This document shows, piece after piece, positions 1,611-13,490 of a DNA stretch of 64,000 nucleotides. Source of the DNA: Pirellulales bacterium (GTDB lineage Bacteria > Planctomycetota > Planctomycetia > Pirellulales > JADZDJ01); assembly GCA_035499655.1 (NCBI GenBank), contig DATJYL010000021.1, positions 1-64,000 of the forward strand, given 5' to 3'. Below the pieces are notes generated by a model, which was given only the letters and a program-made list of their open reading frames with translations, ran no database searches and had not been told where the DNA came from. A program made the position numbers and the translations under genes. Every line of letters starts with the position of its first letter. Position 1 is the first letter of the stretch.

Positions 1611-3848
1611 TTACGGATGGGCAGCGGGCTGCACCACGGTCGGTAGGGTGATGTATCCGGACGGATTCGGCACGGCTGGCGCCATCGCCGGCGCTGGGGT
1701 AACGGGCGGTACGGGCGGCGACGTAACCGCCGCCGTCACCGGAGGCGCCGGTTGCGAACTGGCTTGCGGAAAAAAAGCCATCGGCGACGTCGCAGGACGT
1801 GTCGTCACGGCCATCGCCGCTTGGGAATCGTCTAAAAACGACGCCGAAACCGGCAATACATTAAACTCTTGCTCCCTCTTCTGCGGCTGCACGTTCTCCC
1901 CTTGCTGCTGCAACACTTGTTGACTGTCCCCTTGCCGATTGCCGACTGGACCCGTAACCACCGGCGCGGCCATGAATGGGTTCCGATTTTGAGGCAGCGA
2001 GGTTTGCGGCGGCGAATGCGCTCCCGGAGCCGGCAGCCCTTTGGGCGTTGGCAACTGCGGAAATGGCGATGGCAACGTGGGCGACTGATTCGCTGGAGAT
2101 TGCGGCGGCGGCAATGGCTGTGTTGATGTCTGCGGCGCCACCGTTTGTGGCGTCACTGTCTCTGGCGGCGCCGTTTGCGGTGCTGCCGCCGGTGAAGCCG
2201 ATTCTGGCGTTGCTGTTTCTGGCGCTGCCGATTCGGGCTTGGGCAATTCGGGATTTGGCGTCGGTACCGTTTCCAACGTTGGCGGCGGTGCATTCACTTC
2301 ACCCGGTTGCGGCGGCAATTCTTCGTTGCAGTTCGTCAAGCGAATCTGCCATCCCCCTCCCAGCGCACGGTATACCGCGATCAAGCCCGTCGCAATTTCC
2401 CCTTCCGTCTGAGCCAGCAAATCTTGTTGCTGAACTTGAATCTGCTCCACTTGCGTCACGGTGGTGAAATCGGCCGTGCCCGCCTGATATTGCTTGAGCG
2501 CGATGTTCACGGCCTGAACCGCGCTATCCACCGCGGTCTGTTGATGGCCCGTCCGCTCCTGTCCGCGCAAAAAGGTCACCAACCCGCTTTCCACATCCTG
2601 GTTGGCCGCCAGCACGCTGTTCTGATACGTCGCCAGAAACTCCTGAAAAGTGGCGTCCTGCAGCTTCACGTTGTTCAGCAGCCGACCGTAGTTCAGCAAA
2701 TCCCACTGGAACGATGGCCCCACATTGCTGTTCAGTGCGCCGGGCTCAAACAAGTGGCCCAAATTTTCCGCGCTCCAACCCAACGTGCCGTTGATTGAAA
2801 TGTGCGGATAAAATTCCGATTCAGCAACGCCAATCGCCGCGCACTGGGCCGCCAATCGCCGCTCGGCGGCACGCACATCGGGCCGGCGCCGCAGCAGATC
2901 GGCGGGAATGCCCACCGCCACGTCCTTCGGAGCCGTGGGAATCGGCGCCGCCCCGACCCGCGCCAACAAATCTTCCGGCGGCATCCCCAGCAAAATGCAC
3001 AGTTGCAAAATACTTTGACGCAACTGAATTTGCAATTCCGAAATGTCGGCTTCCGTGGCCTCCAGCGTGGTGCGGGCCTGATCGACATCCAACTCGCTGA
3101 TGGTGCTTACTTTGAAGCGCGCCTCGACAATATTCAGGGTGTCTTTCTGAATCCGAACGTTGTCTTCGGCATATTGAATTCGCTGCTCCAACGTCCGCAT
3201 GTTCACGTAAGCCGTGGCGACGTCGCCCAACAGGGTGACCAGCGCCGCGTCGTAATCTTCCACCGAGGCGTCCAGCAAATCGGAATTCTCCTCGATCGCC
3301 CGGCGAAAGCGACCCCAAAAATCCAACTCCCACGCCAAATTGAAGCCAAAGTTCCATTGATTAAAAAATTGCGGGCCAAATCCGCCCTGCGCCGTTTCCT
3401 GACTGTTCGCAATCGCCATGTAACTGCCCGCAGCGTTTTGCGTTTGTGGAAAAAAGCTGCCAATGGCAATGCCGAATTGTGCCCGGGCTTCCAACACGCG
3501 GAAGCCGGCTTCACGCAAGGTGAGATTTTGGTGATAGGACGTGCAAACCAGATCGTTCAAAATGGGATCATGAAATACCGTCCACCACTGGCAAGGATCG
3601 TCTTCGTCGGTCTTCACGCGCTTGTCGTTGGCGTCGATCCACTCTTTTGCCACGGGCGCCGCCGGCCGACCGTAATTGGGGCCGACCTTAAATCCGTTAT
3701 GAAAATAGTCGCGCCACGAAGTGCAGCCGCTAAGCACCAGCGCGCAGAGTATGACCACCACCAGCAAACGCACTCGCCGGTTTACAACGGCGCATTCGCT
3801 GGCAAGGGGCTCGCGCGCAGTCGGTCTTTCGCGATGAATTGTCGGCAA
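1611..3848 (-). CDS. RND efflux outer-membrane factor lipoprotein (NodT/OprM type) with long Pro-rich C-terminal tail
   Basis: TolC-like channel subunit of a tripartite drug-efflux pump. Residues about 26-42 form a lipoprotein signal ending in the lipobox LVLSGC. Two OEP repeats follow (about 85-290 and 315-500), including the conserved IPADLLRRRPDVRAAERRLA stretch. Family members are usually about 470-500 residues; this one has an extra tail of about 237 residues (509-745) rich in Pro, Gln, Thr and Ala. The first possible start is TTG at 3848. A GTG at 3773, just before the hydrophobic segment and preceded by GGCGA, would give a more normal lipoprotein signal and may be the true start. It lies downstream of two RND permeases on the same strand. 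In OprM-like proteins the C-terminus is periplasmic, so the tail would be too. Confidence 0.9.
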   Translation of the reverse strand: MPTIHRERPTAREPLASECAVVNRRVRLLVVVILCALVLSGCTSWRDYFHNGFKVGPNYGRPAAPVAKEWIDANDKRVKTDEDDPCQWWTVFHDPILNDLVCTSYHQNLTLREAGFRVLEARAQFGIAIGSFFPQTQNAAGSYMAIANSQETAQGGFGPQFFNQWNFGFNLAWELDFWGRFRRAIEENSDLLDASVEDYDAALVTLLGDVATAYVNMRTLEQRIQYAEDNVRIQKDTLNIVEARFKVSTISELDVDQARTTLEATEADISELQIQLRQSILQLCILLGMPPEDLLARVGAAPIPTAPKDVAVGIPADLLRRRPDVRAAERRLAAQCAAIGVAESEFYPHISINGTLGWSAENLGHLFEPGALNSNVGPSFQWDLLNYGRLLNNVKLQDATFQEFLATYQNSVLAANQDVESGLVTFLRGQERTGHQQTAVDSAVQAVNIALKQYQAGTADFTTVTQVEQIQVQQQDLLAQTEGEIATGLIAVYRALGGGWQIRLTNCNEELPPQPGEVNAPPPTLETVPTPNPELPKPESAAPETATPESASPAAAPQTAPPETVTPQTVAPQTSTQPLPPPQSPANQSPTLPSPFPQLPTPKGLPAPGAHSPPQTSLPQNRNPFMAAPVVTGPVGNRQGDSQQVLQQQGENVQPQKREQEFNVLPVSASFLDDSQAAMAVTTRPATSPMAFFPQASSQPAPPVTAAVTSPPVPPVTPAPAMAPAVPNPSGYITLPTVVQPAAHP

Positions 3849-4263: not shown

Positions 4264-7200
4264 TCAGGAATGTGCGCCGCCGCTCTTTAACCGGTGCGGC
4301 TCCAATGATTCGACCGCCTGCGCAACATGCTTTTTCGCCCGGCGGTCGTTCCACGCCTGAATCACATAGAAAAAAATCGGCGTCAAGAACACGCCAAACA
4401 GCGTCACGCCCAGCATGCCGCTAAACACGGCAATTCCCAGCGTGCGGCGCATTTCCGCCCCGGCGCCGCTGGCCACCACTAGCGGCACCACGCCCAATAT
4501 GAACGCGAACGAAGTCATCAAAATCGGCCGCAGTCGCAGCCGCACGGCTTCTAAAACTGCTTCCCGCCGCGGCACGCCCGATTCGTGCTGCACCTTGGCA
4601 AATTCGACAATCAATATCGCATTCTTGCTGGCCAAACCCACCAACACGACAAAGCCGATCTGCGTGAATATATTCAGGTCGTTGTGCCCCACCTGAATGC
4701 CCGTGACCGAAAATAGCAGGCACATCGGCACCACCAAAATCACGGCCAGCGGCAGCGACCAACTTTCGTACTGCGCGGCCAACACCAAAAATACAAACAG
4801 TACCGCCAAGGCGAAAAACCACATCGCGCTATTCCCGGCCTGCAGCTGCAAGTACGCCAAATCAGTCCATTCGTAGGCCATCGAACGGGGCAATTCGCTT
4901 TGGGCAATTTCCGCCGCCAAATCGACCGCCTGCCCGGAGCTGGTTCCCGGCGCCGCTTCGCCCGTCACCGCCGCCGCCGAATATAAATTGTACCGCATCA
5001 CCATCACCGGCCCGCTCGTGTCGCGCACGGTCATTAGCGTCGCCAACCGCACCATTTGCCCTTGATTGTTGCGTACCTGGAGTTGGCGCACGTCGGGTAC
5101 CTGGTTGCGAAAGGTGGGATCGGCCTGCACATTCACTTGCCACGTGCGCCCAAACTCGTTGAAGTTATTCACGTAATAAGAACCGAAATAAACCTGCAGT
5201 GTGTTGAACAAATCGGCCACGGAAATTCCTAGCGCCTCGCATTTGGTGCGATCGATTTCCAAATACAGCCACGGCGTATTCGCTCCGGAGCTGTTAAACA
5301 GTCCCTTTAAGCCCGGTGTGCGATTGCCGCGGGAAACAATTTGCTCACTCACTCGCTGCAATGGTCCCAAGCCCAAATTCCCGCGGTCTTCGACAATCAT
5401 TTTGAAGCCGCCGGTCGTGCCCAAGCCGTCAATCGGCGGCGCGCCAAACGCAGCCACCATCGCTTCGCTCACTTCTTGGTGGCAGCGCTGCTGCAAGTCG
5501 GCGGCAATGGCGTCGGCAGTTAAATCGGCCCCGCGCCGCTCGTCGAACGGCTTCAGCATCACGTACATCGAGCCCAAGTTCGGCGCGTTGGCGTTCAAAA
5601 TCAGCGATTGCCCGGAAATGCCGACCGTGTGAGCCACCCCCGGCGCACGGCCCACGACCTCCTCAATCCGCGCCATCGACGCCTGGGTTCGCTCGACCGA
5701 AGCCGAATCGGGCAATTGCACGTTAAGCAACAAGTAGCCTTTGTCCTGTTGCGGCACAAAGCCGGTCGGCGTGCGATTGAACTGCCACCACGTCACCACC
5801 AGCAAGCCGCCATACACAGCCAGTGCCAACGCGCTGATTCGCAACAGTGCCCCCACCGTTTTGCCGTACACGGTAATCACGCGATCGAAAAGCACATTAA
5901 ATGCGCGAAACAGCGAGCCCAGCACTGCGTTGACCGAATCAATAACCCACCAGCCGATCCCCCCGCCCAGTATAGCCCCTGGAATAAATAACGCGGCATC
6001 CACGGCCCACGACATGGCGGTCGACAGTCCCTCGCCTTGTTCGGCGTTCAGTCCTAACCGCTGGGCCAGCAATTTGTCCCCCAGCCAAACGCTCAGGCAT
6101 CCGCCCACAATGCCGAAAAACCACCAGGGCAGCGCCTCTTTTTTATGCTGATGGCCATGCTCGCCTACTTCCGATTTGAAAATCACCGCCGCCCGCGAAG
6201 GCGTCATCGTAATCGCGTTCACCGCCGAAATAATGGTCGACACCGCTATCGTCACGGCAAATTGCCGGAAAAATTGCCCTGTCACGCCCCCCAAAAAACA
6301 GCACGGCACAAACACGGAACTAAGAACCAGCGTAATCGCCATAATCGGTCCGGTAATTTCGTGCATCGCCTTAATCGTGGCGCTGCGCGCATCCAGCCCG
6401 GTGGCGATTTGCCGTTCGATATTTTCCAGCACTACAATCGCATCGTCCACCACAATGCCGATCGCCAACACCAACCCGAACAGCGTCAAGTTGTTCAGCG
6501 TGAATCCCATGGCCGCCATAATTGCAAACGTGCCGATCAGCGAAACCGGCACGTCGATCATGGGCAGAATCATCGCCCGCCAGTCCTGCAAGAACAGCAG
6601 CACCACGATGGCGACCAGAATCACCGCATCGCGCAGCGTGCGAAACACTTCGTTCACCGATTCACGGATAAACGGCGTGGTGTCGTACACGATGCGATAA
6701 TCCAACCCGTCCGGAAATCGTGTCTTCAATTCCCGCATTTTTGCGTACACGTTGCCGGAGGTATCCAGCGCGTTGGAGCCCGGCAGTTGATAAATCGACA
6801 ACGCCACGGAAGGCTGTCCATCCAGCGTGCACGATTGCTCGTATTGCTGCGAACCCAATTCGACGCGCGGCTTTCCGTCGGCCGTTTTGGTCACCACGTC
6901 GCGCAAGCGAACAATGCCCGTCGACGGCGCAGCCGCCGGGTTCGATCCGCCAACATTCGCCGCGGCCGTCGATCCGCTGGTTCCACCCGCGCCAGGCTGC
7001 CCCGTAGAAGCTGCGCCGGCCGTGGACATGGGTCCGCCGGCATTGGCCGCTTTGATGATAATGTTGGCAAATTGTTCCGGGTCGGTCAGTCGGCCCAGCG
7101 TGTTGATGGTCAATTGAAACTGCTGGCCCGCCGGGGCTGGCTGCTGGCCAATTTGTCCGGCCGCCACTTGAATGTTCTGCTGCGCAATCGCGTTGACAAC

Positions 7201-7812
7201 GTCGTTGGCCGTCAAACTGAGCGCGGCCAATTTGTCCGGATCCAGCCAAGCGCGCAGGCTGTAATCGCGCTGGCCCAAATAAGTAATGCCCGCCACGCCG
7301 GCCACGCGCCCCAACTCGTCTTTGACGTAAATCGTGGCGTAGTTGCTTAGAAAAATGTCGTCATAGCGTTTGTCGGGCGAAATCAGATTCACAATCATCA
7401 ACGTATTGGGGGACATCTTCTTGACGTTGATGCCCTCGTTTTGCACGACGGCCGGAATCACCGGCAGCGCCAACGACACGCGATTTTGCACCAGCACCTG
7501 GGCCATGTCGGAATCCATTCCCAGATTGAACGTAACCGTCAGTTTGTACGCGCCGTCGTTGGTCGATTGGCTCGACATGTACATCATGCCTTCGACGCCG
7601 CTGATTTGCTCCTCGATGGGCGCTGCCACGGTGTCGCGCACTGTCTCCGAATTGGCCCCAGGGTAGGAAGCCGTCACTTGCACCGTCGGCGGCGTGACAT
7701 CCGGATATTGCGCCACCGGCAGCGTGAATACCGCCACGCCTCCGGCCAGCACAAACACGACCGAAATCACGGTCGCGAAAATCGGGCGATCGACAAAAAA
7801 TTCCGCAATCAC
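4264..7812 (-). CDS. RND efflux permease, HAE1 family (first of two tandem permeases)
   Basis: An AcrB/MexB-like inner-membrane proton/drug antiporter of 1182 residues (E. coli AcrB has 1049). The N-terminus MIAEFFVDRPIFATVIS is typical. The proton-relay acids are present as DD at residues 456-457 in GIVVDDAIVV, and the TM10 lysine is present in GLASKNAILIVEFAK. Two inserts explain the extra length. Residues about 256-298 are a Gly/Ala/Ser-rich stretch in the docking domain just before VRLRDV. Residues about 551-630 follow TM6 and add a His-rich patch (EHGHQHKKE) and two extra hydrophobic segments. The start is GTG at 7812. It is separated by 94 bp from the second permease and probably shares its transcript. 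Confidence 0.95.
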   Translation of the reverse strand: MIAEFFVDRPIFATVISVVFVLAGGVAVFTLPVAQYPDVTPPTVQVTASYPGANSETVRDTVAAPIEEQISGVEGMMYMSSQSTNDGAYKLTVTFNLGMDSDMAQVLVQNRVSLALPVIPAVVQNEGINVKKMSPNTLMIVNLISPDKRYDDIFLSNYATIYVKDELGRVAGVAGITYLGQRDYSLRAWLDPDKLAALSLTANDVVNAIAQQNIQVAAGQIGQQPAPAGQQFQLTINTLGRLTDPEQFANIIIKAANAGGPMSTAGAASTGQPGAGGTSGSTAAANVGGSNPAAAPSTGIVRLRDVVTKTADGKPRVELGSQQYEQSCTLDGQPSVALSIYQLPGSNALDTSGNVYAKMRELKTRFPDGLDYRIVYDTTPFIRESVNEVFRTLRDAVILVAIVVLLFLQDWRAMILPMIDVPVSLIGTFAIMAAMGFTLNNLTLFGLVLAIGIVVDDAIVVLENIERQIATGLDARSATIKAMHEITGPIMAITLVLSSVFVPCCFLGGVTGQFFRQFAVTIAVSTIISAVNAITMTPSRAAVIFKSEVGEHGHQHKKEALPWWFFGIVGGCLSVWLGDKLLAQRLGLNAEQGEGLSTAMSWAVDAALFIPGAILGGGIGWWVIDSVNAVLGSLFRAFNVLFDRVITVYGKTVGALLRISALALAVYGGLLVVTWWQFNRTPTGFVPQQDKGYLLLNVQLPDSASVERTQASMARIEEVVGRAPGVAHTVGISGQSLILNANAPNLGSMYVMLKPFDERRGADLTADAIAADLQQRCHQEVSEAMVAAFGAPPIDGLGTTGGFKMIVEDRGNLGLGPLQRVSEQIVSRGNRTPGLKGLFNSSGANTPWLYLEIDRTKCEALGISVADLFNTLQVYFGSYYVNNFNEFGRTWQVNVQADPTFRNQVPDVRQLQVRNNQGQMVRLATLMTVRDTSGPVMVMRYNLYSAAAVTGEAAPGTSSGQAVDLAAEIAQSELPRSMAYEWTDLAYLQLQAGNSAMWFFALAVLFVFLVLAAQYESWSLPLAVILVVPMCLLFSVTGIQVGHNDLNIFTQIGFVVLVGLASKNAILIVEFAKVQHESGVPRREAVLEAVRLRLRPILMTSFAFILGVVPLVVASGAGAEMRRTLGIAVFSGMLGVTLFGVFLTPIFFYVIQAWNDRRAKKHVAQAVESLEPHRLKSGGAHS

Positions 7813-7843
7813 GCCGCTAAACTCCCTAGACCTCTGCCGGAAA

Positions 7844-7878
7844 CCCTCTCCCTGTGGGAGAGGGTAGGGTGAGGGTGC
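7844..7878. repeat. Dispersed hairpin repeat CCCTCTCCC-GGGAGAGGG, copy 1
   Basis: The stem CCCTCTCCC (7844-7852) pairs with GGGAGAGGG (7856-7864), followed by AGGGTGAGGGTGC. The same block occurs reversed at 58307-58344. Here it sits between the two permease genes and could act as a processing or attenuation hairpin in the operon mRNA. Confidence 0.7.
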
Positions 7879-7906
7879 TTCTGTTTGCTTTTCAACATAA
7901 CCTCGC

Positions 7907-10900
7907 TTACGAGCCGCCCGCCGGATTTTGCAGCCGAATCCGCCGGTGAATTTCCAAAATCACCAGCGCCGCCAACACTCCCGCCGTGGCTCCCACAAAA
8001 CACGCTGTCCCCACGGCGAACCCGCCCAACTGGCTTGATAAAAAACCGATGGTCAAACCCAACGCCCCGCCCGCCACGCTGGAGCCTATCCACCGCGTCC
8101 GCTCGGCGGTCAGCAGCTGCGATTCTCCCAGGCCTTGAATCACATAAAAGAACACCGGCGTCAAAAAAATGCCGAACAGCGTCACGCCCAACATGCCGCT
8201 GAACACAGCCACCCCCAGCGAGCGCCGCATCTCGGCGCCGGCGCCAGAAGCAACCACCAGCGGAGCCACGCCAAAAATAAACGCGAACGAAGTCATCAAT
8301 ATCGGCCGCAGCCGCAACCGCGAAGCTTCCTCCGTGGCGTCAAACCGCGATCGCCCTTCCTCTTCGTGCAACTGCCGGGCGAACTCGACCACCAGAATCG
8401 CGTTTTTGCAGGCCAAGCCCACCAGCACGACCAAACCAATTTGCACGAAAATATTCACATCGCGTTGAGTCCACAATACGCCCACCACCGAACTCAACAA
8501 GCACAACGGAACCACCAAAATCACGGCCAACGGCAACGACCAACTTTCGTACAACGCCGACAGCGCCAAAAACACGCTCACCACCGCCAGCGCAAACACA
8601 TACATCGACGTGTTCCCGGCCCGCTTTTGCATGAACATCAGTTCGGTCCAATCCGCCCTCATGCTCAGCGGCAACGAAGCCGCCGCGATCTCATCGACCC
8701 GCTTGATCGCCGCGCCGGAACTGTAGCCGGGTTGCAAATTCCCCGTAATGGCGGCCGCCGAGTACAAGTTATACCGCGTCACACTGCTGGGCCCATTGAT
8801 TTCCTGCAGTTGCACCAGCGTCCCCAGCGGCACCATTTGTCCTCGATTATTTCGCACCTGGAATAAATTAATATCGTCCGTGTGGTTCCGGAACTCGCCG
8901 GCGGCTTGCACGGTCACCTGCCAATGCCGCCCGAATTCGTTGAAGCTGTTCACGTACAGCGAACCGAGCAATATCTCCAGCGTTTGATTCACGTCGGTCA
9001 GCGAGACGCCCAGCGCGGCGGTTTTCATCCGATCGATGTTCAACAGCAACTGCGGCACTTTGGAGCGAAACTGCGTCGTCACGCCGACTAAGCCGGGCAC
9101 TTGTTTTTGCAGCTTCCCCACCAAATCGTCGGTTTGTTGTTGCAACACGGGAAGTCCCAAGTCCCCCCGGTCTTCAATCATCACCTTGAAGCCGCCCGCC
9201 ACACCCAGCCCCGGCACCGGCGATGCCCCGTACACCGTCACCTGCGCATCCTGCACTTCCTTGGCCCACTGGCGGCGCAAGTTTGACATAATGGCCGTAT
9301 CCGGCAAATTTCGCCGTTCGGCAAATGGTTTCAGCACAATGAACATCGATGCATAATTCGGGCTTGTCGCCTGCATGACAAACGACAATCCGGATATTCC
9401 CACGGTATGTGCCACGCCCGGCGCCCGATTGGCGATCTCGGCCACTTGCTTCATTGCCTCCTGCGTGCGCTGCAACGAAGAAGAATCGGGCAATTGAATG
9501 CTGCAGATCAGCCGTCCCTGATCCTGTTGCGGCACAAAGCCGATCGGCGCACTGCTGAACGTCACGTACGTAATCAGTATCAACAAGCCGTACACAAACA
9601 GCACCGCCACGCTGAATCTCATCATGCGTTCAACGACCCACGAATACGCCGACGTGCTCACGCCGAATAGCCAGTTGAATAGCCGAAAAAACCAGCCCAA
9701 TACCAGGTCTAACAGCCACGTGACCGGATCCCGGCGGCTACCGTGCGGTTTCAGCAAAATGGCAGCCAAAGCGGGGCTCAGGGTCAAAGAACTGATGGCC
9801 GAAAACACCGTCGAAACCGAAATTGTAACCGCAAATTGCCGATAGAATTGCCCCGTGATCCCGCCGACAAATGCGCACGGCACAAACACCGCGCACAACA
9901 CCAACGCCACAGCAATAATGGGACCGGTCACCTCTTCCATTGCTTTCCGCGTGGCTTCGCGCGGCCCCAGGCCGTGCGTCATCCAACGTTCGACGTTCTC
10001 CACAACGACAATGGCGTCGTCCACCACGATGCCAATCGCCAACACCAAACCGAACAGCGAAATATTGTTGAGGCTGAATCCCAACGCAGCCATCACCGCA
10101 AACGTGCTGATAATCGCCACCGGCACGGCAATCAGCGGAATAATGACCGACCGCCAATTTTGTAAAAATATCAGCACCACGATCGCTACCAAAAACACCG
10201 CCAGGAACAAAGTTCGAACCACGTCGGAAACCGATTCGCGAATATACGGAGTCGTATCGTATGCGATGGCGTAATCCACTCCCTCCGGAAACCGCGACTT
10301 CAATTCTTCCATTTTCGCCTGCACTCGGTCGGCCACATCCAAGGCGTTCGTGCCCGGAAGTTGATACACCGCCAAACCGACCGAAGGCTGGCCGTCGAAC
10401 AAGCACGATTGATTGTAATTCTGCGCGCCCAGTTCGACGCGCCCCACATCGCGCACCCTTACGATGGCAATCGAGGGCTGGCCCGGCCCCGCCGGCGATG
10501 CTCCGCCTGCGGCCCCGGCTCCCGCCGCGCTGTTAATCGAAATTCCTTCAATCGTGCCCGTGGTGTTGGTGTTGTCGGTGGCTGTGCCGGCAGTTGAAGT
10601 TGTCGAAGAAGCGCCGCTGGCGCTGCCGCCGGTTGAACCGCCGCCCCCCGTCGCGCTGCCGCCGGTCGTTGTGCCGCCGCCGGCTGCGCTGCCGCCTCCG
10701 GTCGTGGAAACGCCCAAATTGGAACTCGTTCCGGTGGTGGTCGTCGTTGCCGTAGAGGACATAGAACTAGAAGGCGCCACCGTGGCGGTACTGCTGGCTC
10801 CGCCCCCGCTAGTAACCGAATTCGCCGCCAGCGCGCTGCCGCCGGCGGTACCCGTCGTAGCCGTACTTGAAGATGCCCGAGCAGCGCTGCTTGCCGCGCT

Positions 10901-11746
10901 GGCTGCCGCAGCCGGCACGCCAATGCTCCCCACCACCGAGCGCGGCGAGCCTGTCGCTTGCGCCGGCGGCGTCGTTTGGCTCACCTTGACAATAATGTCG
11001 CCGAACTGTTCCGGCTCGGTTAGCCGGCCCAGCGTGTCGACCGGCAATTGGAACACTTGTCCCTGCGGCGCCGGCTGCTGGCCAACTTGTCCAGCCGGTG
11101 CGTCTAAATTTTGGTTGCGAATGGCCGTGGCCACATCCAACGCCGTCATGTTGCGGGCGGCCAGTTCCTGCGGATCAAGCCAGATGCGGATGCTATAATC
11201 GCGCTCTCCCTGATACGTAATGTCGGAAACTCCCGGCACCCGCAACAATTCATCCCGGATATTGATGGTCGCATAATTGCTCAAATAAATATCGTTGTAT
11301 CGATGGTCCGGCGAAAAAAAGTTCACAATCATCAAAATGTCGGGCGTTCGCTTGCGGATCGTAATCCCCTGGTTTTGTACCTGCGTGGGCAATTGCGGCA
11401 TGGCCAGCGTTACCCGGTTCTGCACCATCACCAGCGCCGTATTCAAATCGACGCCGATGTCGAACGTCACCGTCAGCGTATACGAGCCGTCGTTCCCCAT
11501 TTGCGAAGACATGTACAACATGCCGGGAACGCCGTTCACTTGCTGCTCGATCGGGGCAGCCACGGTATCGGCCACCACTTTAGCGCTTGCGCCCGGGTAG
11601 TTGATGGAAACCGAAACCCCCGGCGGCGTGATCCGCGGATATTGCGCAATGGGCAAATAAAAGAGCGAGATCGCCCCGATCAGCGTCATCACAATCGAAA
11701 CGACCGAGGCAAAAATCGGCCGGTCGATGAAAAATCGTGATATCAT
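7907..11746 (-). CDS. RND efflux permease, HAE1 family (second permease), with about 171-residue low-complexity docking-domain insert
   Basis: A 1279-residue AcrB-like permease starting at ATG 11746. It has the DD pair at residues 576-577 (GIVVDDAIVV) and the TM10 lysine in GLACKNAILVVEFAR, so proton coupling looks intact. Residues about 256-426 (10469-10981) are almost wholly Ser, Thr, Gly and Ala. They lie between IIVKVSQ and IVRVRDVGRVELG, the same docking-domain position as the shorter insert of the neighbouring permease. The C-terminus carries about 70 extra residues with two more hydrophobic segments. It follows the adaptor gene by 51 bp. Two unlike permeases in one operon recall MdtB/MdtC, where heterotrimers form; that analogy is inference. 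Confidence 0.95.
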   Translation of the reverse strand: MISRFFIDRPIFASVVSIVMTLIGAISLFYLPIAQYPRITPPGVSVSINYPGASAKVVADTVAAPIEQQVNGVPGMLYMSSQMGNDGSYTLTVTFDIGVDLNTALVMVQNRVTLAMPQLPTQVQNQGITIRKRTPDILMIVNFFSPDHRYNDIYLSNYATINIRDELLRVPGVSDITYQGERDYSIRIWLDPQELAARNMTALDVATAIRNQNLDAPAGQVGQQPAPQGQVFQLPVDTLGRLTEPEQFGDIIVKVSQTTPPAQATGSPRSVVGSIGVPAAAASAASSAARASSSTATTGTAGGSALAANSVTSGGGASSTATVAPSSSMSSTATTTTTGTSSNLGVSTTGGGSAAGGGTTTGGSATGGGGSTGGSASGASSTTSTAGTATDNTNTTGTIEGISINSAAGAGAAGGASPAGPGQPSIAIVRVRDVGRVELGAQNYNQSCLFDGQPSVGLAVYQLPGTNALDVADRVQAKMEELKSRFPEGVDYAIAYDTTPYIRESVSDVVRTLFLAVFLVAIVVLIFLQNWRSVIIPLIAVPVAIISTFAVMAALGFSLNNISLFGLVLAIGIVVDDAIVVVENVERWMTHGLGPREATRKAMEEVTGPIIAVALVLCAVFVPCAFVGGITGQFYRQFAVTISVSTVFSAISSLTLSPALAAILLKPHGSRRDPVTWLLDLVLGWFFRLFNWLFGVSTSAYSWVVERMMRFSVAVLFVYGLLILITYVTFSSAPIGFVPQQDQGRLICSIQLPDSSSLQRTQEAMKQVAEIANRAPGVAHTVGISGLSFVMQATSPNYASMFIVLKPFAERRNLPDTAIMSNLRRQWAKEVQDAQVTVYGASPVPGLGVAGGFKVMIEDRGDLGLPVLQQQTDDLVGKLQKQVPGLVGVTTQFRSKVPQLLLNIDRMKTAALGVSLTDVNQTLEILLGSLYVNSFNEFGRHWQVTVQAAGEFRNHTDDINLFQVRNNRGQMVPLGTLVQLQEINGPSSVTRYNLYSAAAITGNLQPGYSSGAAIKRVDEIAAASLPLSMRADWTELMFMQKRAGNTSMYVFALAVVSVFLALSALYESWSLPLAVILVVPLCLLSSVVGVLWTQRDVNIFVQIGLVVLVGLACKNAILVVEFARQLHEEEGRSRFDATEEASRLRLRPILMTSFAFIFGVAPLVVASGAGAEMRRSLGVAVFSGMLGVTLFGIFLTPVFFYVIQGLGESQLLTAERTRWIGSSVAGGALGLTIGFLSSQLGGFAVGTACFVGATAGVLAALVILEIHRRIRLQNPAGGS

Positions 11747-11797: not shown

Positions 11798-13093
11798 TCA
11801 ATTGGTCTTGGCAGGACCGGGCGAGGTTTCCACCGCGCCGGGTTGGTTGGAATCTTTGGAATCCGTGGAGGAATCAACGGATTTGCTTTCCGCGGATTTA
11901 CCCTCGCCCGCGGAAGTTCCTTCACGAATTGCTCCCAGCGTCGGCATCGGTTCGCGGTCGGGAGTAATCTGCATTCGGGGGCGAACTTGCTGAATGGCGC
12001 CGATCACAACCCATTCGGAGGTCTTCAATCCAGAATCAATCACCCGTAATCCATCTTCTTGCAAAGCACCGGTGTCGACCCGCTGCTGCTGCACAATATT
12101 TTTGTCGTCCACGGTGTACACGTACTTCATGCCTTGATCGGAACCAATGGCACGGTCGATCACCAACAGTGCGTCGTGCGGTTGGCCAATCGGCAGCCGC
12201 ACGCGGACAAACATTCCCGGCGACAGCAACCGCACCCCATTCGCCGGCTTCGGATTCGGCACCACCCCGCGAACCGTAATGCTGCCCGTGCCGGGGTTCA
12301 CCTGGTTATTCACGAAATTGATGGTGCCTTCGTGCAGATAGCCATCTTCCCCTTCCAGCCCGATGAAGACCGGAATTTCTCCCTGCTGATAACGCACAAT
12401 TTTGCCTTCGTTCACCGCTCGCCGAACGCGCAACACCGTGTTCTCGTCGATGTCGAAATACACGTACATCGGATCGACCGACACCACCGTGGTCAATTGC
12501 GTTTGATCCTGATTGACCAAATTTCCCGGCGTCAAATAATAACGCGATATTTGCCCCGTCAGCGGCGCCGTCACTTTACAAAAACCCAAGTTCAGCTTGT
12601 ACACTTCCAGGCTGGCCTTGGCGGCTTGCACCGATGCCTCCGCTTCTTCCTCGGCCGCCTGATACCGATCCAAATCTTGCTTGCTGATCGCGCCCGGCGT
12701 TTTGGCCAGCTCCTTCGCCCGGGCGTTGTCCGCCTCGGCTTCCTTCACGCGCGCTTCGTTCAGCAGCACTTGTCCTTCCGCCTGATCGTACTGTGCTTGA
12801 TAAGGTCGGGGATCAATTTCAAACAGCACTTCTCCCTTTTTTACCTCCGCGCCTTCCTTGAACGGCGCGCTAATCAAATATCCGGTGACGCGCGGCACAA
12901 CGCTAACCGCTTCCGGAGCCTCAATCCGGCCGGTGAAATCAACATAGTCCGTCACCTGCCGCTCAACCGGCTGGCTGACTGGAATTGCCGGCGGCTCCGC
13001 TGGCGCTACGTTCAGCGACTTGGAACTGCATCCCGCCGCCAACGTAAGGGGCAAGCACACACAGGCCCCCCAAAATGCAATTTTCTGCTCCAT
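11798..13093 (-). CDS. RND efflux periplasmic adaptor (membrane fusion protein), lipoprotein
   Basis: An AcrA/MexA-type adaptor of about 431 residues. ATG at 13093 is chosen over the upstream GTG at 13108 because AAGG lies just before it. The signal ends in the lipobox LTLAAGC. The order of parts is typical: a barrel-sandwich strand (VVPRVTGYLISAPFKEGAEVKKG), a helical hairpin (about residues 95-170), the second lipoyl half (FCKVTAPLTGQISRYY), then beta-barrel and membrane-proximal domains. The last about 50 residues are a charged Ser/Glu/Lys-rich tail. It is the first gene of the efflux operon. No regulator gene (TetR or MarR) is adjacent. Confidence 0.94.
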   Translation of the reverse strand: MEQKIAFWGACVCLPLTLAAGCSSKSLNVAPAEPPAIPVSQPVERQVTDYVDFTGRIEAPEAVSVVPRVTGYLISAPFKEGAEVKKGEVLFEIDPRPYQAQYDQAEGQVLLNEARVKEAEADNARAKELAKTPGAISKQDLDRYQAAEEEAEASVQAAKASLEVYKLNLGFCKVTAPLTGQISRYYLTPGNLVNQDQTQLTTVVSVDPMYVYFDIDENTVLRVRRAVNEGKIVRYQQGEIPVFIGLEGEDGYLHEGTINFVNNQVNPGTGSITVRGVVPNPKPANGVRLLSPGMFVRVRLPIGQPHDALLVIDRAIGSDQGMKYVYTVDDKNIVQQQRVDTGALQEDGLRVIDSGLKTSEWVVIGAIQQVRPRMQITPDREPMPTLGAIREGTSAGEGKSAESKSVDSSTDSKDSNQPGAVETSPGPAKTN

Positions 13094-13490
13094 AATGCCT
13101 TTCGCCACCTGGGTTGCATCATCCGAGGCCGGCCGTGCCGCCCCTCGATGGCAGACAACTTCGGCACGCTATCCCCACAGCAATCATATCAAATCGAGTC
13201 CGATATACCACGAGCGCTTTTTTAGGCCCTCAGTCGCGGCAGAAAAATGTTCCTGTGGGAAAACTGAAAAGCCGTTCGCATGCGGGTGCCAGGCCGCTTC
13301 TTTAAGTGGGTAGTATTAACTGTCTGGCCGCCATGCCCTTATGCAACAAAACTTAAACAGGAGATAACAGAGTAAACGGAGACCTTTTTTCAAATTCTAT
13401 TTCCATGATTACTCTGTGCCCTCTGTTTCCTCCTGTTGAATTTTTGCCGACGTTAGCACCGGAGCCGCATGCAGGTGCTATGGCCACACT
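13094..13490. promoter_or_regulatory. 397-bp upstream region of the efflux operon with an imperfect inverted repeat
   Basis: This must contain the promoter of the minus-strand efflux operon, though I cannot point to firm -35/-10 boxes. An imperfect inverted repeat lies at 13356-13437: AACAGGAG-NN-AACAGAG at the left and its complement at the right, with an AT-rich centre. The arms could serve as a regulator site or as a terminator for other transcripts. No gene is seen. Confidence 0.45.

Follow-up and report, generated by a model that had tools for sequence, protein, structure and literature searches.

The window, a stretch of 64,000 nucleotides from a planctomycete of the order Pirellulales, contains an operon-like run of minus-strand genes encoding, in order, a periplasmic adaptor, two RND permeases (here denoted B and A) and an outer-membrane factor (Table 1). 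In profile searches both permeases pass the curated cutoffs of the NCBIfam models NF000282 (RND_permease_1) and TIGR00915 (HAE-1), scoring 1296.7 (A) and 1305 (B) bits against a cutoff of 1250, and 1084.1 (A) and 1090.9 (B) bits against one of 940.35. Their best solved relatives in a PDB comparison are BpeF, AdeG, OqxB, CmeB and AcrB. The proton-relay residues D407, D408, K940, R971 and T978 (AcrB numbering, assigned by motif) are all present in 29/29 A proteins and in 33/33 B proteins, except D408, which is found in 32/33.

Table 1. Coordinates of the RND pump genes and of the features discussed in the text.
Feature	Position	Strand	Description
Outer-membrane factor, NodT family	1611..3848	minus	~245-aa Pro/Ala/Thr-rich C-terminal tail
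Permease A	4264..7812	minus	1182 aa; second permease; NF000282 above cutoff
Permease A beta-hairpin 2 (LQVRNNQGQMVRL)	5044..5082	minus	DC counterpart without insert; internal control
Permease A insert, 45 aa	6916..7050	minus	residues 255-299; tip of DN beta-hairpin 1
Permease B	7907..11746	minus	1279 aa; first permease after adaptor; NF000282 above cutoff
Permease B insert, 173 aa	10466..10984	minus	residues 255-427; tip of DN beta-hairpin 1
Periplasmic adaptor	11798..13108	minus	RND_mfp above cutoff; nearest model MexE; low-complexity C-terminal tail

Several parts of these proteins depart from the AcrB, MexB, OqxB and BpeF pattern or vary among relatives. Permease B ends in an extension of ~60 residues (residues ~1216-1279; 7910-8101) with two hydrophobic Gly-rich stretches, and an insertion at this site occurs in 33/33 members of the B clade and is absent from A. 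Permease A has an extra segment between TM6 and TM7 (residues ~557-629; 5926-6144), for which two additional helices are predicted; insertions here, of up to 79 residues, are found in 13/29 A proteins, 4/33 B proteins and 69/104 of the remaining permeases. Neither the extension nor the helical hairpin is shared with the four pumps named above. The tail of the outer-membrane factor (1611-2340) follows the NodT domain and is rich in Pro, Ala, Thr and Ser; it is much shorter in those relatives whose gene is in the data, and the long form is thus not conserved. Elsewhere in the set, at locus L183 (G070:C1:5554000-5567000), the open frame that contains the RND permease is exceptionally long, at 1719 residues.

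An earlier note on this DNA had described Gly/Ala/Ser/Thr-rich inserts at one docking-domain position in both permeases, and the translations bear this out. In A, 45 residues (AANAGG...APSTG) lie between NIIIK254 and IVRLRDV, and in B, 173 residues (VSQTTPP...QPSIA) lie between DIIVK254 and IVRVRDV, Lys254 preceding the insert in each; both inserts are in frame and stop-free, and they differ in length between the partners as the note had stated. Its coordinates (6919-7047 and 10469-10981) were right as far as they went, each insert being one residue wider at each end. Among the 28 main ORFs of the window that were checked, the two inserts are the strongest stretches of Gly, Ala, Ser, Thr and Pro, which make up 76-77% of residues in the insert class, with Ser and Thr together at ~34% in both insert classes. 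Charged, aromatic, His and Cys residues amount to 5.1%; shuffling the bases of the same DNA gives 31.8%, and one-step nonsynonymous neighbours (stops counted) give 37.6%. A frame or assembly artefact is ruled out, the inserts being open in frame and recurring at matching places, with 45 and 175 residues, in G001, a genome of the same genus. They are real and inherited, and they mark a variant, specific to this clade, of an established kind of pump.

Their structural position follows from comparison with AcrB. Among the listed PDB matches, the alignment of B to solved RND permeases breaks at residue ~256 and resumes at 424-429, opposite chain position ~255-262 (AcrB 253-260), and because the alignments stop before the insert and resume after it, the insert is extra sequence. 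In AcrB, S258, within the VNQDGS of the DN beta-hairpin, can be cross-linked through Cys to S273 in the AcrA beta-barrel (PMC5404916), the barrel clasps hairpin 1 (DN) and hairpin 2 (DC) like a pincer (PMC6975555), and hairpin deletion leads to loss of TolC, as Weeks (2014) is cited in PMC4446572. Taken together, these data show the inserts replacing the tip of hairpin 1, the counterpart of AcrB 253-258, and so agree with the earlier note in having them face the adaptor and outer-membrane factor. Its view of them as flexible is also supported, since AlphaFold2 predicts disorder, with pLDDT ~29-38 over most of B 257-426 and ~23-37 over A 257-299 in shallow models (25-28 rows, mean pLDDT 60-62, B modelled up to residue 560) that show no secondary structure in the insert regions but keep the strands on either side in position. 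At the same apex, hairpin 2, the pseudo-symmetric counterpart of hairpin 1, has by alignment count a constant length in all 29 A and all 33 B proteins and in 102 of 104 other permeases.

The site was measured in 184 distinct permease ORFs drawn from a search for relatives, a scan of genome contigs and fetched regions, a few rows being overlapping fragments of one gene. Most other HAE-1 permeases, including those of Proteobacteria, Bacteroidota and Gastranaerophilales in the set, have 6 residues here. Long inserts occur in 23 B rows (125-215 residues, mean 164, CV 0.11) and medium ones in 33 A rows (30-63 residues, mean 45, CV 0.18). The first gene was long and the second medium in 19/19 long-insert pairs of the first survey, and across 24 such pairs the two ranges (125-215 and 30-54 residues) show no overlap. 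A separate class sample of 59 genomes, used as an out-of-sample set, gave six B genes with 126-186 residues and five partner A genes with 30-53, all inside the earlier ranges (five full pairs and one B whose partner lies outside the fetched stretch; two B lengths are trimmed). B-type genes were present in 5/59 of these genomes, besides the window's own, which makes the trait patchy within the class. Random length or position in close relatives, which the earlier note had named as the sign of neutral repeat expansion, is not what the survey shows: the inserts keep one position, and their length classes never overlap. A and B insert lengths show no significant correlation among pairs (rho 0.31, p 0.19), and coordination of the two lengths was set aside on this ground. 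A general low-complexity habit of the operon was likewise rejected, for the tails of the outer-membrane factor and adaptor, though also of low complexity, are highly variable and show no parallel conservation; the C-tails of adaptors in the same operons have a length CV of 0.45, far above those of the inserts.

When the tree is built from the sequence outside the insert, A and B form sister clades of matching branching, and their distances are correlated (mirror-tree r 0.87; 0/2000 permutations as high); the two are sister paralogues that have been inherited together. Basal pairs (L120, L096, L147, L150 and L066) have 12-14 residues at the site in both permeases. Presence of the B insert requires two state changes on the tree, one gain and one loss, the loss falling in a lineage (L081, L085, L102 and L084) that keeps the pump genes and has 12 residues in B and 33-63 in A; for A there is one state change among the rows scored, plus a separate 30-residue case in L067. 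On this tree the long insert was gained about once in each paralogue. The B genes of the loss lineage carry an A-like tract just after hairpin 1, with identities over core columns 300-525 of 0.71-0.92 to their own A as against ~0.53-0.67 to other B's, which suggests gene conversion from the neighbouring A. Because of this tract it matters that a tree excluding the middle of the protein (with 26 rows dropped for lack of anchors) still places the group inside the insert-bearing B's. Two permeases of another clade, L181 and L184, have inserts of 45 and 27 residues at the same hairpin, which indicates that the site is permissive and has been enlarged independently. Insert sequence is poorly conserved across relatives. 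Seven close comparisons give the inserts a dN/dS of 0.02-0.67, above that of the flanks in six and below 1 in all, values that low-complexity alignments flatter. These patterns favour constraint on the length and composition of the insert and little on its sequence, with a common limit of tolerance as a possible alternative source of the same pattern.

Two known systems offer partial parallels. As in MdtBC and MuxBC, one adaptor gene accompanies two non-identical tandem permease genes, here co-inherited and with the adaptor present in 31/33 loci; the homotrimeric AcrB, MexB, OqxB and BpeF differ in this respect. The window permeases nevertheless fall outside the MdtB and MdtC families (454-510 bits against cutoffs of 1584-1774), and they carry hairpin-1 inserts, which do not figure in the description consulted for MdtB and MdtC. 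MdtBC is a B2C heterotrimer (PMC4338810), and by analogy A and B may co-assemble. With the homotrimeric HAE-1 pumps (best solved match BpeF 7wlv, then AdeG 8yr0) the window permeases share the whole fold, the proton-relay residues, hairpin 2 and both strands of hairpin 1, but the tip of hairpin 1 has ~6 residues in those pumps and 45 and 173 here. The other parallel is the EmrA adaptor, in which a disordered beta-barrel loop of 21 residues is needed to close gaps in the modelled ring (PMC4158417). The Aquifex EmrA loop likewise lies level with the beta-barrel in a tripartite pump and is modelled as gap-closing, but it is far shorter, conserved in sequence, and belongs to the adaptor of an MFS system, the window loops being in RND permeases. 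A full-text search of open-access literature found no paper describing hairpin-1 inserts of this kind.

The reading that we tentatively prefer, with confidence somewhat short of even, is that the inserts serve as a disordered collar or seal where permease and adaptor meet in a two-permease planctomycete RND pump. A and B most likely share one adaptor as cooperating permeases and, by analogy with MdtBC, may do so as a heterotrimer. In this clade hairpin 1 of DN has grown into a nearly uncharged loop of Gly, Ala, Ser, Thr and Pro, predicted to be disordered, of ~30-63 residues in A and ~125-215 in B. Such loops may act as a soft collar, filling spaces about the funnel and the beta-barrel ring in the way modelled for EmrA and stabilising or adjusting the assembly; three loops of 45-173 residues at this level could close gaps as the EmrA loop does. 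Selection would act on chemistry and approximate length and hardly on sequence, and the length difference may mark the two permeases as non-equivalent, the unequal loops perhaps reflecting A-B co-assembly. Weighing against a collar are the poorly conserved sequence, the independent inserts of L181 and L184, and the lineage that lost the B insert and kept its pump genes, from which it follows that the insert is not always needed.

The main and serious rival, somewhat less probable than the collar, is near-neutral tolerance, according to which low-complexity DNA grew by slippage or repeat duplication at a tolerant hairpin tip into loops of no specific role, selection merely purging extreme lengths and charged, aromatic or aggregating residues. 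The B insert does show repeat traces (33-bp period, 2.3 copies), insert dN/dS is several-fold above the flanks in most pairs, and the gains in another clade and the loss in one lineage fit as well. Such freight sits less easily with inserts that were gained about once in each paralogue and then kept for long in several families, with non-overlapping length classes of low CV upheld in five new pairs, with a composition far from the base-shuffled expectation, and with hairpin 2, at the same apex, which never grew in the A and B clades. The geometric idea of the earlier note, that linkers of different length set the pump for variable membrane spacing, appears highly improbable even with inserts so near the adaptor and outer-membrane factor. 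Both ends of each insert sit on neighbouring beta-strands of one subdomain, for which reason it is a loop, not a spacer, and cannot set the distance between domains; the adaptor alpha-hairpin has 70-72 residues whether a pump carries inserts or lacks them, and A and B lengths show no significant correlation. As to the adaptors themselves, those of L136, L082, L114 and L086 (Gemmata-type) have a beta-barrel loop insertion of up to ~24 residues, which is seen only in lineages with permease inserts and is absent from the window adaptor. Co-variation of adaptor and inserts was rejected as a general rule, given the constant alpha-hairpin and the restriction of the barrel-loop insertion to these four.

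The size of the loops bears on how they could be accommodated. By the usual scaling for disordered chains, the radius of gyration is ~42 Å for 173 residues and ~19 Å for 45. The funnel opening of AcrB measures 30 Å (PMC4403515), so the B loops are unlikely to lie all inside the funnel. This mismatch would suit a partner-identity tag, in which loop lengths enforce a fixed A:B heterotrimer, as in MdtB2C, since three long loops cannot fit one funnel and mixed trimers would be favoured. The strict first-long, second-short rule, the co-inheritance and the existence of heterotrimeric RND permeases all point the same way, but the basal pairs with 12 residues in each permease and the loss lineage (12 and 33-63) presumably still assemble, and A-B co-assembly is drawn from analogy; we regard such a tag as quite unlikely. 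Less probable still, and in our view very unlikely, is that the loops are outward periplasmic anchors, either O-glycosylated Ser/Thr/Pro segments or contacts to peptidoglycan or the outer-membrane factor: the Ser and Thr content and the exposed apex position are in its favour, but the inserts are almost uncharged and their alignment has no conserved sequon or peptidoglycan-binding motif.

Beyond the collar itself, a bolder form, which we consider improbable, would have the length-coded pair of disordered loops, in a two-permease pump found across the clade, close or gate the mouth of the funnel entropically and fix an asymmetric A:B arrangement; if true, it would give intrinsic disorder a role that is not described for RND permeases in the literature consulted for comparison. 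The tip of hairpin 1 is among the main contacts of the RND tripartite assembly and has been thought short and precise, yet a planctomycete clade keeps 30-215 residues of predicted disorder there. This clade, with ready-made controls in the lineage that lost the B insert and in the basal pairs with 12-residue tips, offers a natural experiment on three questions: to what extent the joint between permease and adaptor has to be ordered, whether a disordered loop is able to seal or adjust it, and whether two-permease pumps are asymmetric by design.
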